58,678 nt of DNA from Bacteroidales bacterium. Lineage in GTDB: Bacteria; Bacteroidota; Bacteroidia; Bacteroidales; WCHB1-69. Below, in pieces: positions 6,190 to 11,692 of the stretch; positions within the stretch are counted from its first letter, which is position 1, and every line of letters begins with the position of its first letter. The stretch is from positions 1 to 58,678 of the forward strand of contig JAFVNW010000088.1 of assembly GCA_017506175.1 (NCBI GenBank), given 5' to 3'. The position numbers and the translations under genes are program-made. Below the pieces are notes generated by a model. It searched no databases. It saw only the letters and a program-made list of their open reading frames with translations, and was not told the origin of the DNA.

Positions 6190-8457
6190 TTAGAACCGGA
6201 GTGTGACACCGCCCATGAAGTTGATGCCAGCCTGCGGGAAGTAGCCGTCGGTGCGGAACTCCTCGCCACCGTAGATGTAGCGGTATATCCAGCCATTGCT
6301 CTCATACTTGCTGTTGAACAGATTATTGACATCAAAAAAGAGTGTGATGGCGGAAATCGGCTTCGTCTCAATCGTGTAGCTCAGGTGGAGGTTGTTGATG
6401 CAGTAGGGCTTGATGATGTAGTTGTCGTTGCTGGAATTGTCGAGGTATTGCTTGCTGACGAATTTGGTGATGAGAGCGATGTCGAAATTCTTGACCGGAA
6501 TGAAGTGGAATTCGTTGCCGGCGACAATATTCGGAGAAAAGGAGATGTCGGTCATGCCGAGGTGGGTAGCGCGCTGGCTGCCGCTGTCCCAGTCGTCAAC
6601 ATATTCAGTGTAATCAAGAATCTTGTTGAGGGAGAAGGTTCCGTTGATGTGCCATTCGAAAAACTTGACGGGCTTGTAAGCGACGGCCAATTCCAAACCG
6701 GTACGGAAGCTCTTAGGCGCGTTGGTCATGATGTTGTCGCCCACGTCGTTGATTTCGCCGGTGAGAATCAGCTGGTCAAGATAGTACATAAAGTAGGCGT
6801 CGGCCGAGAAGGCCACCTTGTTATGACCAAGCTGATAGCCGAGTTCAAAGTCGAAAAGCGTTTCGGGATTGGGGCGGTGCTCCGGCTCATTGTCGGTGAG
6901 GTCAGAGCGGGTGGGTTCGCGGTTGGCCATCGCAAACGAAAAACTTACGTTGTGATGAAGGTTCTTTGCATCTTCCCAACTGTGGAAAATCCCCACTTTC
7001 GGATTGAAGAAGTTCCAATAATAGTTCTGGGCAATGTCGCGCAGATTGTCGTCAATGCCACCAATCTGATACATAATCCCACGATATTGCACATCCGCAT
7101 AAACGGAAGTCCCCTTCTTGGAATTATAGATGAACTTCCCGAACAGGTTGAACTGCAGCTTGTCGCCGGTGCCATCGTACCAATGCTGCCCCTTCTTCAC
7201 TTGTCCGGCATATTGCATCCACTCCAGCGTTCCGTAATGCTTGCCATTGTATTGGTTGGCCGCACCACCGACCATCCACATAAAACGCCCATTGATGGAA
7301 TGGCTGAAATTGAAGTTCAGACCATAGAAGTAGTTGTCCAAGTATTTACGGGTGATAAGGTCGGTGTATTTGAGCGTATCATTGGGCAATTCGATGTTCG
7401 GAAGCCCATATTTTGAGAATTTCTTGTCGTCTTTATACTGTTCATAATAGCCGATACCACGGGTGAGGTGGGCGGTGATTTTCAGGTGGTACAAATTCTG
7501 GTTGACTTGCCAAGGATAATCGTAGGTAAGCTGATAGTGGGTCTGTTGGTAGTTATCTGTTTCATTATCATAACGATGCAACATTCCGTTGTCGTCGTAA
7601 TAAAGACCGCAGTCATTGTATTTGCGGTTGGTCTTGAGGGAGTCGGATGGCACACCGTCCCAAGCCAGACCGGTTTTTTCATTGCCATAGAGCACGCGGA
7701 AACTGAGCGCACCAAACTCCTTGTTTTTCTTCTCGCTCAAGATACGATACTTAGCAGTAAAATAGAGGGAATGCAGTTTAGCAAAGGAGTTTTCAACGTA
7801 GCCATTGCTGAAGATATTGGAGTAGGCGACGGCGGCGGAGAAGCGGTTTTTGATGAGGCCCGTATTGGCGGTGATGGAGTTGCGGAAGGTCATAAAGGAG
7901 CCGGCACTGGAGCTGAGGATTGCGTAAGGATCGTCGGAAGGTTCCAGTGTAGTGAAGTCCATCGTGGCACCGAAAGCGGATGCGCCGTTATTGGAGGACC
8001 CCACACCGCGCTGCACTTTCAGTCCTTGTACGTTGCTTCCGAGCGCGGGCAGATTGACGAACCACGAGCCTTGCGACTCCGCGTCATTGAGGGCTACTCC
8101 GTTGACTGTCACATTAATACGCGTCTGATCAATACCTCGGATGCGCATGTAGGTGTAGCCGATTCCGGTACCTGCATCAGAGGTGGTCACCATCGCGGGC
8201 ACTAATTCCAACATATTGTTGACGCTGCCGTTGCCAAGGTTCTTCTGGATGGCGTCACGACCGACGTTAGAAGTGGCAAACACGCCTTCGCCTTCAAGCG
8301 GGGCACTCACCGACACGCCTTGCAATTCGTAGTACTTGACGCTATCTTCTTGCTGCGCAACAGCAGTACGCACGCCCAATGCGAAAACGGTTAATAAAAG
8401 AATTGTCTTGATAGTCCGTGGTGCGGACTTTTGGAATTTTTGTTTGTTTTGCTGCAT
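6190..8457 (-). CDS. TonB-dependent receptor, probably for thiamine
   Basis: 755 residues. A long N-terminal signal peptide (basic start, then TILLLTVFALGVRTAVA, cut before QQED) is followed directly by a plug domain (YELQGVSVSAPLEGEG through RIRGIDQTRINVTVNGVALN, about 45-190) and a 22-strand-type barrel rich in aromatic residues ending GGVTLRF, the normal C-terminal phenylalanine. There is no N-terminal carboxypeptidase-like domain, so this is not a SusC-type protein. The TPP riboswitch directly upstream points to thiamine or its precursors as substrate; that is inference from known Bacteroides thiamine receptors under such riboswitches. No plasma-membrane transporter gene is next to it. 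Confidence 0.9.
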   Translation of the reverse strand: MQQNKQKFQKSAPRTIKTILLLTVFALGVRTAVAQQEDSVKYYELQGVSVSAPLEGEGVFATSNVGRDAIQKNLGNGSVNNMLELVPAMVTTSDAGTGIGYTYMRIRGIDQTRINVTVNGVALNDAESQGSWFVNLPALGSNVQGLKVQRGVGSSNNGASAFGATMDFTTLEPSDDPYAILSSSAGSFMTFRNSITANTGLIKNRFSAAVAYSNIFSNGYVENSFAKLHSLYFTAKYRILSEKKNKEFGALSFRVLYGNEKTGLAWDGVPSDSLKTNRKYNDCGLYYDDNGMLHRYDNETDNYQQTHYQLTYDYPWQVNQNLYHLKITAHLTRGIGYYEQYKDDKKFSKYGLPNIELPNDTLKYTDLITRKYLDNYFYGLNFNFSHSINGRFMWMVGGAANQYNGKHYGTLEWMQYAGQVKKGQHWYDGTGDKLQFNLFGKFIYNSKKGTSVYADVQYRGIMYQIGGIDDNLRDIAQNYYWNFFNPKVGIFHSWEDAKNLHHNVSFSFAMANREPTRSDLTDNEPEHRPNPETLFDFELGYQLGHNKVAFSADAYFMYYLDQLILTGEINDVGDNIMTNAPKSFRTGLELAVAYKPVKFFEWHINGTFSLNKILDYTEYVDDWDSGSQRATHLGMTDISFSPNIVAGNEFHFIPVKNFDIALITKFVSKQYLDNSSNDNYIIKPYCINNLHLSYTIETKPISAITLFFDVNNLFNSKYESNGWIYRYIYGGEEFRTDGYFPQAGINFMGGVTLRF

Positions 8458-8508
8458 AACTCTAACAATTTTAGATGGTTAAAAATAAAACTGAAAGAGG
8501 GAAAAAGA

Positions 8509-8588
8509 ATGTCGCGAAACTCTCCCTACGTCGGCATTATCCGAATCAGGTTCATTGGGTCTATTCTCAGCCTTTCGGCACCCCTTTC
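8509..8588 (-). promoter_or_regulatory. TPP (thiamine pyrophosphate) riboswitch
   Basis: Read on the minus strand, the leader contains in order the THI-box elements GGGGTGCC, GGCTGAGA, ACCC, GAACCTGAT, GGATAATGCC and CGTAGGGA, with normal spacing. These make up the pyrimidine and pyrophosphate sensor helices of the TPP aptamer. The aptamer starts just after a TACTTTTG promoter box (8606-8599) and ends about 50 nt before the receptor start at 8457, leaving room for an expression platform that would hide the start or stop transcription when TPP is abundant. Confidence 0.95.
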
Positions 8589-8598
8589 TTTTCGGCGG

Positions 8599-8606
8599 CA
8601 AAAGTA
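8599..8606 (-). promoter_or_regulatory. Bacteroidota -7 promoter box for the riboswitch and TonB gene
   Basis: TACTTTTG on the minus strand matches TAnnTTTG and lies just upstream of the first aptamer helix. Confidence 0.7.
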
Positions 8607-8675
8607 CGACTTTTTTCTTTTATTTGAACCGTGAAAAAAATTTTGCGGGGTCAGTCAGCCAACGCGGATTTTTTG

Positions 8676-8683
8676 TACCTTTG
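8676..8683 (+). promoter_or_regulatory. Bacteroidota -7 promoter box for gatE
   Basis: TACCTTTG followed by GC, about 40 nt before the gatE start. It is divergent from the riboswitch promoter; the two boxes are 70 bp apart. Confidence 0.72.
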
Positions 8684-8723
8684 CGCCCGCATTTTGTAAA
8701 AAAAATCAAAACATCAATATATC

Positions 8724-10685
8724 GTGAAAAAAATTGACCCTATTGAGAATTTTGAAAACTCTCGCAAGAAAATCGGTTACAAAAACCGCAAGGAAGCCAC
8801 TCAAAAAGATTACGATCGCCTCGGCTTCAAGTCGGGCCTGGAAGTGCATCAGCAACTTTTGACAGAAAAGAAACTTTTCTGCCGTTGTCCCGCCGGACGT
8901 TTTCAGAAGCCGAACGAATACGACGCGGAGATCATCCGCCACATGCGCCCCACCCTCTCCGAGATGGGCGAATACGATGGCACCGCACTGATGGAATTCC
9001 GCACCAAGAAGGAAATCGTCTATCACATAGCCAACCCGACGGCCTGCACCTACGAAATCGACGACACGCCTCCGTTCTTCATTGACAAACAGGCTGTTGA
9101 AATCGCTATCGAGGCGGCCCTTGCTTCCAAAATGAGCATCGTGGGCGAACTGCACATCACCCGCAAGCAGTACCTCGATGGTTCCATCCCGACGGGCTTC
9201 CAGCGCACCGCCATCATCGGCATCGAAGGGTCGCTCCCGCTGAAACACAAGAATGTGAAATTGATACAGATGAGCTTGGAGGAGGATGCCTGCCGCGAAG
9301 TCTCCGACATCCGCCACCGCCGTATCTATCGCACCGACCGCCTCGGCATGCCGCTGATTGAAACAGTGACCTATCCGGAACTGATGAATCCGGACGAACT
9401 GATGGAAGCCGGCAACGCCATCCGCTTCCTGAATCGCAGTTTGGGCAAAATGCGCGTGGGCATCGGTGCCGGCCGCGAAGATGTAAACGTGAGTTGCAAA
9501 GGCGGTACCCGCGTCGAAATCAAAGGCGTAGCCCACACCAAATGGATACCGGAACTCTCTCACAACGAAGTCTATCGCCAGTGGGCTCTGCTCGCCATCC
9601 GCGACTTGCTGAAAAAACGCTGCAAGAAGGATGATTGGAAGATGACCTCCTTGAAACTCAACCCTAAAGAGTACAAATTCTACTTCACTCCGGTGGTGGA
9701 TGCCATTAACCACGGAGAACAACTATGGGCAGTCAACCTGCCTCACTTCGCCGGTCTGCTCTCCCACTTCACCCAACCCGGCAAGCCGTTCTACGACGAA
9801 TTCGCCGGCCGGCTGAAGGTGATCGCCTGCATCGAACGCCCCAACATGGCCAGCAGTGAGGATCTCGACGACGTGATCAGTGACCACGTTTTCGCGCAAG
9901 TCGCCGCCAAAATGAACGCCGGAGCCGACGATGCTCAAATCATCTTCTGGGCTCCCGAAGCCGACGCACAGATGGCCCTCGATGTAATCGAAGAACGCGC
10001 CCTGATGACCTTCGACGGAGTGCCGAAAGAAACCCGCAAGTCGCTGAAAGACGGCACCACCATCTTTGAACGCGTGCTGCCCGGCGCCGACCGTATGTAC
10101 CCCGACACCGATTCAGCCCCGATTCCGTTGGACAACTCCTACATCGAGGAAATCCGCAAGAGAGTGCCCGCCGTGGAACTGCCTGCACGCTACGAGCAAT
10201 TCCAAAAGTGGGGCATCCCCGAAAACTGCTACTTCTACCTACTCACCAACAACCTCTACCCGCTTCTCCAACGCATGGTGAAAGAACTGAAACTCGATGG
10301 CAAGTACATCGGGACCTTTATGGGCCAACGCTTTAAACACATCCACGGGGTCCATCGCGCACTGCCTTTCAGCTACGAACGAGTCTATGACCTATTCGCA
10401 TACCTGAAGAAGAACAAGATCGATTTTGCTGTGGCCCTGACAATGGTGGAAAAAATGTTCAACCAGCCAGATGCCAGCTTTGAAGAACTGCTGCCGAAAC
10501 GCTATACAATGAATGTCAATGCCGAGATGAAAGTCGCCGAGGACGCGAAACTGCTAAAAAAACAGTTCGTTCCAAACCGCAAACGCACCAATGCCAACGA
10601 CAAATTCAACTATGTGATGGGGATGCTGCGTGCAAAATACGAAGGCCGTATCAGCATGGACAAATTGGCGAAGGCTGCCAAATAA
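8724..10685 (+). CDS. gatE: GatE-family Glu-tRNA(Gln) amidotransferase subunit (archaeal type)
   Basis: 653 residues, far longer than GatB (~475). GLEVHQQL (His42) opens the kinase cradle shared by GatB and GatE, followed by KLFCRCPAG, RPTLSEMGEYD, DDTPPFFIDKQAVEIA, DGSIPTGFQRTAIIG and QMSLEEDACREV, all in GatE order. Around residues 310-450 lies the insertion domain specific to GatE (WAVNLPHFAGLLSHFTQPGK, then GVPKETRKSLKDGTT and LPGADRMYPDTDSAPI), and the C-terminal part resembles the helical tail/YqeY region. In archaea GatE works with the asparaginase-like GatD to turn Glu-tRNA(Gln) into Gln-tRNA(Gln). No gatD is in this window. There is an extra ~27-residue basic N-terminus; GTG at 8724 or a later start is possible, but no better one is seen. 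Stop overlaps the next ATG by one base. Confidence 0.9.
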   Translation: MKKIDPIENFENSRKKIGYKNRKEATQKDYDRLGFKSGLEVHQQLLTEKKLFCRCPAGRFQKPNEYDAEIIRHMRPTLSEMGEYDGTALMEFRTKKEIVYHIANPTACTYEIDDTPPFFIDKQAVEIAIEAALASKMSIVGELHITRKQYLDGSIPTGFQRTAIIGIEGSLPLKHKNVKLIQMSLEEDACREVSDIRHRRIYRTDRLGMPLIETVTYPELMNPDELMEAGNAIRFLNRSLGKMRVGIGAGREDVNVSCKGGTRVEIKGVAHTKWIPELSHNEVYRQWALLAIRDLLKKRCKKDDWKMTSLKLNPKEYKFYFTPVVDAINHGEQLWAVNLPHFAGLLSHFTQPGKPFYDEFAGRLKVIACIERPNMASSEDLDDVISDHVFAQVAAKMNAGADDAQIIFWAPEADAQMALDVIEERALMTFDGVPKETRKSLKDGTTIFERVLPGADRMYPDTDSAPIPLDNSYIEEIRKRVPAVELPARYEQFQKWGIPENCYFYLLTNNLYPLLQRMVKELKLDGKYIGTFMGQRFKHIHGVHRALPFSYERVYDLFAYLKKNKIDFAVALTMVEKMFNQPDASFEELLPKRYTMNVNAEMKVAEDAKLLKKQFVPNRKRTNANDKFNYVMGMLRAKYEGRISMDKLAKAAK

Positions 10686-11692
10686 TGCAAGATAAAGTCG
10701 TGACCGACAACTTATTACAGAAATTTTCTCAAAGCACTGTCCTCGTCATTGGCGATGTGATGGTGGATGCATACCTGAACGGGAGCGTCGGGCGGATTTC
10801 CCCCGAGGCCCCCGTTCCGATTGTAGATATCCAAGAACGCACCTACCGCGCAGGCGGAGCCGCCAACGTGGCCATCAACCTGCAATCGCTTGGTGCTCAG
10901 CCGATTCTCTGCTCCGTCATCGGCAACGATGCCAAAGGGGAACTTCTGCGGGAGATTTTGCAAAAAAAACACCTGAAAACAGATTACCTACTTCCCTCCA
11001 CTTTTCGCAAAACCACGATCAAGTACCGCGTGATTGGCAACCAGCGCCAAATGCTCCGCATCGACGAAGAGGATGTTTGCCCGCTGAAAAAGGAAGAAAG
11101 TGTGGATCTCCTGCAAATCACCAAGCAAATCATCGACAACCAGAAGATTGATGCCATTGTTTTTGAAGACTACGACAAGGGTGTCCTGTCGAAAAATGTG
11201 ATTCAAACGATTGTGGGCTGGGCCAAAGCCAAGAAAATCATCGTAACAGTGGATCCAAAGCGCAAAAATTTCTCTCATTATCAAGGAGTCACCTTATTCA
11301 AACCCAACTTGAAAGAGTTGAAGGAGGGGTTACAGGATGAGGACAAAACGTTTTCGATAGAAACGGTGCAACAGTTGATGCGGGATTTTGCGACGGAGCA
11401 CCAAATTGACTACCTGTTCACGACCTTATCGGAGAAGGGGGTGGCGATGTACGACCGCCAAGAGGACTCCTTCTTTACTGAGCCTGCCTATTTGCGAAAA
11501 ATCAGCGATGTTTCCGGCGCCGGCGACTCAGTGATTGCCACTGCAACACTCTGTCTTTTAGCAGGTTTGCCCATTCATAAGGTGGCACAGGTGGCCAACC
11601 TCGCCGGCGGCATCGTGTGCGAGTACAGCGGCGTAACCCCCGTTCACAAACAACAACTCATGGACGAAATCCGTAAATATAATATTGTATAG
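10685..11692 (+). CDS. hldA: D-glycero-beta-D-manno-heptose-7-phosphate kinase (RfaE1-like)
   Basis: 335 residues of PfkB/ribokinase fold. The N-terminus has VIGDVMVDAYLNGSVGRISP and the substrate motif RAGGAANVAINLQSLGA; the catalytic signature is DVSGAGDSVIATATLCLLA with the base Asp281. The pattern GSVGRISPEAPVPI is characteristic of the kinase half of HldE/RfaE. The adenylyltransferase half is absent, so this is the stand-alone kinase making ADP-heptose precursor for LPS core. ATG at 10685 overlaps the gatE stop (TAATG), suggesting translational coupling although the functions are unrelated. Confidence 0.88.
   Translation: MQDKVVTDNLLQKFSQSTVLVIGDVMVDAYLNGSVGRISPEAPVPIVDIQERTYRAGGAANVAINLQSLGAQPILCSVIGNDAKGELLREILQKKHLKTDYLLPSTFRKTTIKYRVIGNQRQMLRIDEEDVCPLKKEESVDLLQITKQIIDNQKIDAIVFEDYDKGVLSKNVIQTIVGWAKAKKIIVTVDPKRKNFSHYQGVTLFKPNLKELKEGLQDEDKTFSIETVQQLMRDFATEHQIDYLFTTLSEKGVAMYDRQEDSFFTEPAYLRKISDVSGAGDSVIATATLCLLAGLPIHKVAQVANLAGGIVCEYSGVTPVHKQQLMDEIRKYNIV

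Follow-up and report, generated by a model that had tools for sequence, protein, structure and literature searches.

A GatE-type tRNA amidotransferase subunit in a Bacteroidales genome and its relatives, with a possible auxiliary role beside GlnRS

Results

A gene of the GatE family

The window, i.e. the whole stretch of 58,678 nucleotides that was analysed (contig JAFVNW010000088.1, assembly GCA_017506175.1), carries on its forward strand an open reading frame for 653 amino acids at 8724..10685 (GTG start, stop included). In a profile search with the encoded protein, the GatE model TIGR00134 (gatE_arch) matched residues 29-651 at 372.4 bits, over its cut-off of 319.55, and a second GatE model, NF003107 (PRK04028), scored 434.7 bits, just below its cut-off of 456. 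Six GatB models stayed at 56-122 bits, with cut-offs that range from 315 to 680, their best stretches lying between residues ~116 and 316. The best matches in the PDB were the GatE chains of archaea, namely 2d6f_C from M. thermautotrophicus (E 4.8e-79) and 1zq1_C from P. abyssi (E 1e-75), and GatB chains were weaker, with E values of 1.3e-16 and worse. The first-pass annotation had proposed a GatE-type protein of 653 residues in a Bacteroidota genome and had suggested a profile search against GatE and GatB as a check; this search places the protein in GatE, and the motifs quoted at that time are all present in the translation. Judged by these sequence matches, the open reading frame is firmly assigned to GatE at the family level. 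A GatB protein with a long tail was ruled out by the scores of the GatE and GatB models.

The predicted catalytic (kinase/amidating) domain, which also encloses the GatE insertion, occupies residues 37-475 (8832..10148, forward strand, as for all features of the gene), where Pfam GatB_N matches with E 8e-47 and positions 3-277 of its 277 are covered. The protein thus shares the kinase fold family with GatB of the bacterial GatCAB enzyme, but it stands far below the GatB cut-offs. In an alignment of 34 rows, every member of which matches TIGR00134 at E 1e-20 or better, E40 and H42 of the GLEVHQQ motif (E40-V41-H42, 8841..8849), all of E186-E187-D188 in the LEEDACRE motif (9279..9287) and E213 (9360..9362) are invariant (34/34). 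In the alignment with the PDB match, H42, E186 and E213 fall on residues 15, 157 and 184 of M. thermautotrophicus GatE; we take His15, Glu157 and Glu184 of that protein to be metal/ATP-site and metal-binding residues. The GatE-type insertion (residues ~300-430, 9621..10013), which had also been read from the sequence at first pass, is aligned through in TIGR00134 and in 2d6f_C and 1zq1_C, lies past the best stretches matched by the GatB models, and gives no Pfam match by itself (window positions 9600-10058). In archaeal GatE, this insertion is AspRS-like. A C-terminal tail that may resemble YqeY and the GatB tail (10362..10670) is covered by TIGR00134 up to residue 651 and matches Pfam GatB_Yqey weakly (E 0.0081, 16.5 bits, below the cut-off of 27); it is taken to bind the tRNA elbow.

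The genome of the window (G000; 2.46 Mb, 99 contigs, 91% complete, 2.9% estimated contamination) contains this gene as the single GatB_N match found. The gene is under purifying selection, with a dN/dS of 0.03 in comparison with genome G208, whose GatE copy is 98% identical, and of about 0.12 in comparison with either G200 or G202. The window protein departs from the consensus at 4 of 232 near-invariant columns, where 83 distinct sequences show one departure in the median and 13 at most. A decaying orphan would look worse, so these few departures indicate that the gene is not decaying.

Directly 3' of gatE, and overlapping its stop codon in a TAATG sequence, lies a gene for an HldE-N-like PfkB kinase (10685-11692, forward strand). 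The coupling to an LPS kinase gene that had been noted earlier is therefore real as regards the overlap, while the kinase, at 327 bits, remains below the TIGR02198 cut-off of 345. The congeners G200 and G202 likewise have a gene of this cluster after gatE, and in this genus a kinase, instead of gatD, stands directly 3' of gatE; the first-pass reading that gatD is not adjacent in the window is borne out. The gene had also been called promoter-led, a claim that found no backing in a sigma-70 consensus scan, which gave no forward-strand site from 8350 to 8724. The promoters of Bacteroidota, however, deviate from the sigma-70 consensus. On the opposite strand, a 338-amino-acid open frame (8706-9722) runs antisense to gatE and is probably a mechanical shadow of its coding sequence.

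GatE is widespread among bacterial relatives

In a set of 99 relatives, the window's own genome counted, GatE was present in 54 (E 1.7e-214 or better); in one of these, G263, the gene is split over two contigs. Within the window's genus it was found in four of 13 genomes (G000, G200, G202 and G208), and the other nine show none. A wider sample of 198 genomes from the phylum contained GatE in 19, again with the own genome counted (E 1.4e-145 or better), plus a short fragment in G047; this sample held no second GatE genome of the same class, and many closer relatives have GatE. In 17 of the other 18 GatE genomes of the phylum sample, a PF00710 match in a frame of 460-530 amino acids lies on the contig of gatE; in the eighteenth (G031), the match is on a different contig. 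A scan of named genomes returned at least 566 confirmed relatives; judging from the record titles of the best 80, most are uncultured Bacteroidales or Bacteroidetes of the rumen, other animal guts, sediments and waters. Nearest among the matches listed, at 98%, was RUG734, an uncultured Bacteroidales bacterium. Thus, GatE in this Bacteroidota genome is real, as had been claimed, but it is not the lone oddity that it had seemed to be.

When GatE presence was mapped onto a GluRS tree of 30 rows, nine changes were required, and the distribution was not clustered (153 of 500 shuffles were as low). Such a scatter means that the gene was lost or transferred repeatedly, and some of the absences will be false ones due to incomplete genomes. 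In G156, a genome listed only as belonging to the same phylum, locus L003 (contig C73) carries a gatDE pair of the Bacteroidales type with a GatE that is 56% identical, which reflects either a transfer or a misbinned contig. Three records among the 80 matches listed are labelled Cloacimonadota or Aminicenantes; their GatE frames (L213:1690-3645, L217:5001-6923 and L219:695-2641) fall outside the Bacteroidales GatE rows in the tree.

The phylogeny with archaeal GatE that had been proposed at first pass was run with 22 bacterial GatE, three archaeal GatE and five GatB sequences. It grouped the bacterial GatE together (85/85, a modest support) and set the archaeal GatE apart (100/100); the three archaeal rows comprise two partial chains and one piece on a long branch, so that long-branch attraction is a concern. 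Identity between bacterial and archaeal GatE was 33-38% in the pairs compared, and 34-38% between the window protein and the three archaeal sequences. As far as three archaeal sequences and this modest support can tell, the unusual origin suggested earlier amounts to a bacterial clade of its own, and the tree speaks against a recent acquisition from archaea; a thin archaeal sample and overlong branches to GatB preclude finer statements on origin.

GatE is paired with GatD in most genomes that carry it

In G156, a GatD of 461 amino acids adjoins gatE and scores 502 bits with TIGR02153 (cut-off 324). The GatD of the congener G202 passes the same model at 492 bits, carries domains GatD_N, Asparaginase and Asparaginase_C, and can be aligned with both archaeal GatD structures over residues 7-442 of its 460. 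With the G156 protein as query, a strong GatD match was obtained in 49 of the 54 genomes with GatE and in one of the 45 without it (Fisher p 2.9e-21). The two genes share a contig in 41 of the 49 genomes that have both, and lie on different contigs in eight (G202, G218, G219, G222, G228, G234, G243 and G250). They are adjacent in 20 of 29 family-level loci. Over 7 kb, both genes occur in 66 of 85 loci, a set which contains some genomes twice; the next most common neighbour occurs in 15 of 85, and no conserved functional or biosynthetic neighbour of gatE in these loci comes near gatD in frequency. The single GatD in a genome without GatE is at L097 (G266, contig C463), where the upstream neighbour is an unrelated 379-amino-acid frame.

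In G000 itself, searches of the 91%-complete assembly with PF00710 and with the G156 GatD did not find GatD, only an asparaginase of the AnsA type. This single PF00710 match is encoded in a 365-amino-acid frame and is 26% identical to GatD, over residues 99-433 only. Type I asparaginase AnsA corresponds to a domain that GatD contains, but GatD adds the GatD_N domain, and among relatives the AnsA-type gene is found with or without GatE. The genome-wide search that the first-pass annotation had proposed for gatD and glnS thus recovered GlnRS and not gatD. Of its suggestions as to how GatE might work here, a distant GatD, which has a precedent in G202 of the same genus, and another amidase are both plausible for G000, and a new role is conceivable; the family does have a true GatD partner.

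Five GatE genomes lack a GatD match, namely G000 (91% complete), G200 (80%), G208 (85%), G220 (97%) and G227 (71%); in G227, gatE ends near a contig edge. Counted over all 54 GatE genomes, five misses compare with 4.8 expected for an unlinked gene, and GlnRS was also missed in five; this count is too lenient, because in most of the genomes gatD is beside gatE and would hardly be missed. When only the 13 genomes without gatD on the contig of gatE are counted, the five misses compare with 1.5 expected from completeness (P 0.009), and GlnRS was missed in one of these 13. Excluding the contig-edge case G227 leaves four of 12 without GatD (P 0.02), and counting the near-identical G000 and G208 once leaves three of 11 (P 0.07). 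Incompleteness accounts for the missing GatD only partly, and a hidden GatD and a true loss are both live options. Both of the proteins tried that flank the unlinked gatD of G202 had no match in G000, so synteny cannot tell a loss from an assembly gap. At L165 in G220, unrelated genes follow gatE at the place where three congeners have gatD, so that a further candidate for an orphan GatE comes from this genome.

The glutamine-charging machinery is alike with and without GatE

G000 has GlnRS (TIGR00440, 768 bits) and a bacterial GluRS, a setting different from that of archaeal GatDE, in which GlnRS is absent and GluRS is non-discriminating. With fragments counted, GlnRS was found in 49 of 54 genomes with GatE and in 40 of 45 without. 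A second, partial GlnRS-like frame in G000 (C88:2529-3098), 53% identical to the main GlnRS, is possibly assembly contamination or a fragment. The GluRS column of T. thermophilus Arg358 holds Arg in 16 of 16 GatE-positive and 14 of 14 GatE-negative rows (30 of the 98 genomes with a match), and by this marker, which is not decisive, the GluRS of G000 appears to be of the discriminating type. According to a published paper, the marker failed in H. pylori GluRS1, where a change of Arg358 was without effect, and non-discriminating GluRS is described as absent in Bacteroidetes with the exception of Fluviicola taffensis. Since GatB was not found, a GatCAB enzyme is unlikely in G000.

The tRNA-Gln(UUG) sequence is identical over 72 nt in all four GatE-positive congeners and in five of the nine GatE-negative ones; among the remaining four, the match is at 99% in two and at 97% in one, and G203 is without a match. 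In G000, the two tRNA-Gln each pair U1 with A72 and carry a D-loop of 7 nt. According to a review, GatDE and GatCAB both select tRNA-Gln partly through its small D-loop; the archaeal GatDE enzyme reportedly makes use of an A1:U72 pair (2022 review). No readable feature of the charging machinery changes with the presence of GatDE. A dedicated tRNA-Gln or an altered GluRS was considered as the reason for GatDE and rejected, as GatE-positive and GatE-negative genomes showed no difference in either.

Discussion

That GatDE is regarded as archaeal, as the first-pass annotation had it, agrees with the published view. A 2022 review of archaeal code systems limits present-day GatDE to archaea and states that a GlnRS gene is missing from all archaeal species; a 2021 review also places GatDE only in archaea, and a 2020 review assigns GatCAB to bacteria and GatDE to archaea. 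Within the literature on GatE or GatDE and bacteria or Bacteroidota, titles and abstract openings contained no report of a bacterial GatDE, and neither a bacterial GatE nor a bacterial GatDE appeared in the excerpts of PMC9499178, PMC8007984, PMC3927822, PMC4206432, PMC4810234, PMC6338057, PMC8204192, PMC13131534 and PMC7373986. Automatic annotation may already name such bacterial proteins GatE. In its argument on early evolution, the 2022 review treats GatDE as confined to archaea and attributes the lack of GlnRS in archaea to the co-evolution of tRNA-Gln with GatDE. A widespread bacterial GatDE that coexists with GlnRS and with a U1-A72 tRNA-Gln strains both premises. The locus is of interest as part of a bacterial GatDE clade more than as a single odd gene, and bacteria with GatDE and GlnRS are organisms in which both routes to Gln-tRNA(Gln) can be compared. 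They also raise the question of what use a Glu-tRNA(Gln) amidotransferase is to a cell that has GlnRS and a discriminating-type GluRS.

The bacterial system has in common with archaeal GatDE (2D6F of M. thermautotrophicus, 1ZQ1 of P. abyssi) the long matches of both GatE and GatD, the conserved key residues and the two-gene pair; it differs in the bacterial host with GlnRS, the 34-38% identity of the window protein to the three archaeal GatE, the U1-A72 pair of tRNA-Gln, and the genes, which are not always linked. For the family, we strongly infer that GatE acts with GatD on Glu-tRNA(Gln). In the bacterial GatDE that we propose, GatE would be the subunit that binds tRNA and carries out the ATP-dependent amidation: GatD, the asparaginase-like amidase, would free ammonia from Asn or Gln, and GatE with ATP would activate the Glu side chain on Glu-tRNA(Gln) and amidate it to Gln-tRNA(Gln). 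We know of no activity established for any bacterial GatDE. Because GlnRS and an Arg358-type GluRS are present, GatDE would not be the main route to Gln-tRNA(Gln); as a reasoned guess, it may be an auxiliary or repair route beside GlnRS, which would set right misacylated Glu-tRNA(Gln) or add to the supply. Against repair, a steady need would be expected, yet the presence of GatE is patchy; also against the proposal, the tRNA-Gln of G000 have U1:A72, whereas A1:U72 is the pair reported for archaeal GatDE. In the window's genome, GatD would either be encoded away from gatE and missing from the 91%-complete assembly, as the unlinked copy of G202 suggests, or be lost, and we lean slightly to an unlinked gene that was missed over a loss. 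The recount in the 13 genomes favours loss more than the count over all 54, and we hold the auxiliary or repair role, with the status of GatD included, to be about as likely as not.

A true loss of GatD in the window's lineage is a serious option. In its full form, which we consider somewhat improbable, the window's subclade and, independently of it, G220 lost GatD, and GatE works with free ammonia or an AnsA-type asparaginase, or as a tRNA-binding factor. The excess of misses in the 13 genomes, in which GlnRS is nearly always found, argues for such a loss, as do the failure to find GatD in G000, G200, G208 and the 97%-complete G220 while gatE is under strong selection, the unrelated genes that replace gatD in G220, and an asparaginase in G000 that aligns to GatD from residue 99 only. 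This evidence is weakened by the fact that metagenome assemblies do not lose genes at random and that gatE of G000 and G208 is near-identical; in addition, G202 and seven other GatE genomes keep GatD on another contig, and the AnsA-type gene does not follow GatE. It is rather unlikely that GatE of the window's subclade, without GatD, is an orphan amidating subunit that is fed by ammonia or another amidase and guards GlnRS-bearing bacteria against Glu-tRNA(Gln).

The remaining readings give GatDE a different task or a different source. An amidation of another charged tRNA or acid substrate, by a relative of GatDE with a new specificity, would fit the separation from the three archaeal GatE, the coexistence with GlnRS and a tRNA-Gln that lacks the archaeal A1:U72 pair; but the bacterial system keeps the key residues and the two subunits of archaeal GatDE, tRNA-Gln has its small D-loop, and gatE has no conserved biosynthetic neighbour, which makes a new substrate improbable. 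Even less probable is GatDE as the main tRNA-Gln route, with a GluRS that is non-discriminating in practice and a secondary GlnRS. The tight pair of GatD and GatE under purifying selection and the imperfection of Arg358 as a marker would allow this, but GlnRS is kept equally often with and without GatE, the GluRS marker and tRNA-Gln are the same in both groups, and GatE was not found in most genomes of the genus. Contamination, with a contig of archaeal origin placed in the bin of a Bacteroidota genome, would be conceivable in an assembly of so many contigs with some estimated contamination; it is rejected, its probability being negligible, on account of bacterial uvrC, trpS and radC near gatE on the contig, neighbours common to the congeners G200 and G202, and the place of the window protein among the Bacteroidales GatE in the tree. 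Of all these readings, we prefer an auxiliary or repair route that works alongside GlnRS.

Carriage of gatE by a virus or plasmid was ruled out by searches of both. Among viral contigs, 26 stretches had a pattern and none encodes a relative; among plasmids, nine records were matched, and no record covered 80% of the query at a single place. Four of these other than the best match have a named gene, which is gatB. The best plasmid match is an archaeal megaplasmid of Natrinema (L349, CP031304.1), on whose record GatE is unannotated and appears in more than one frame.
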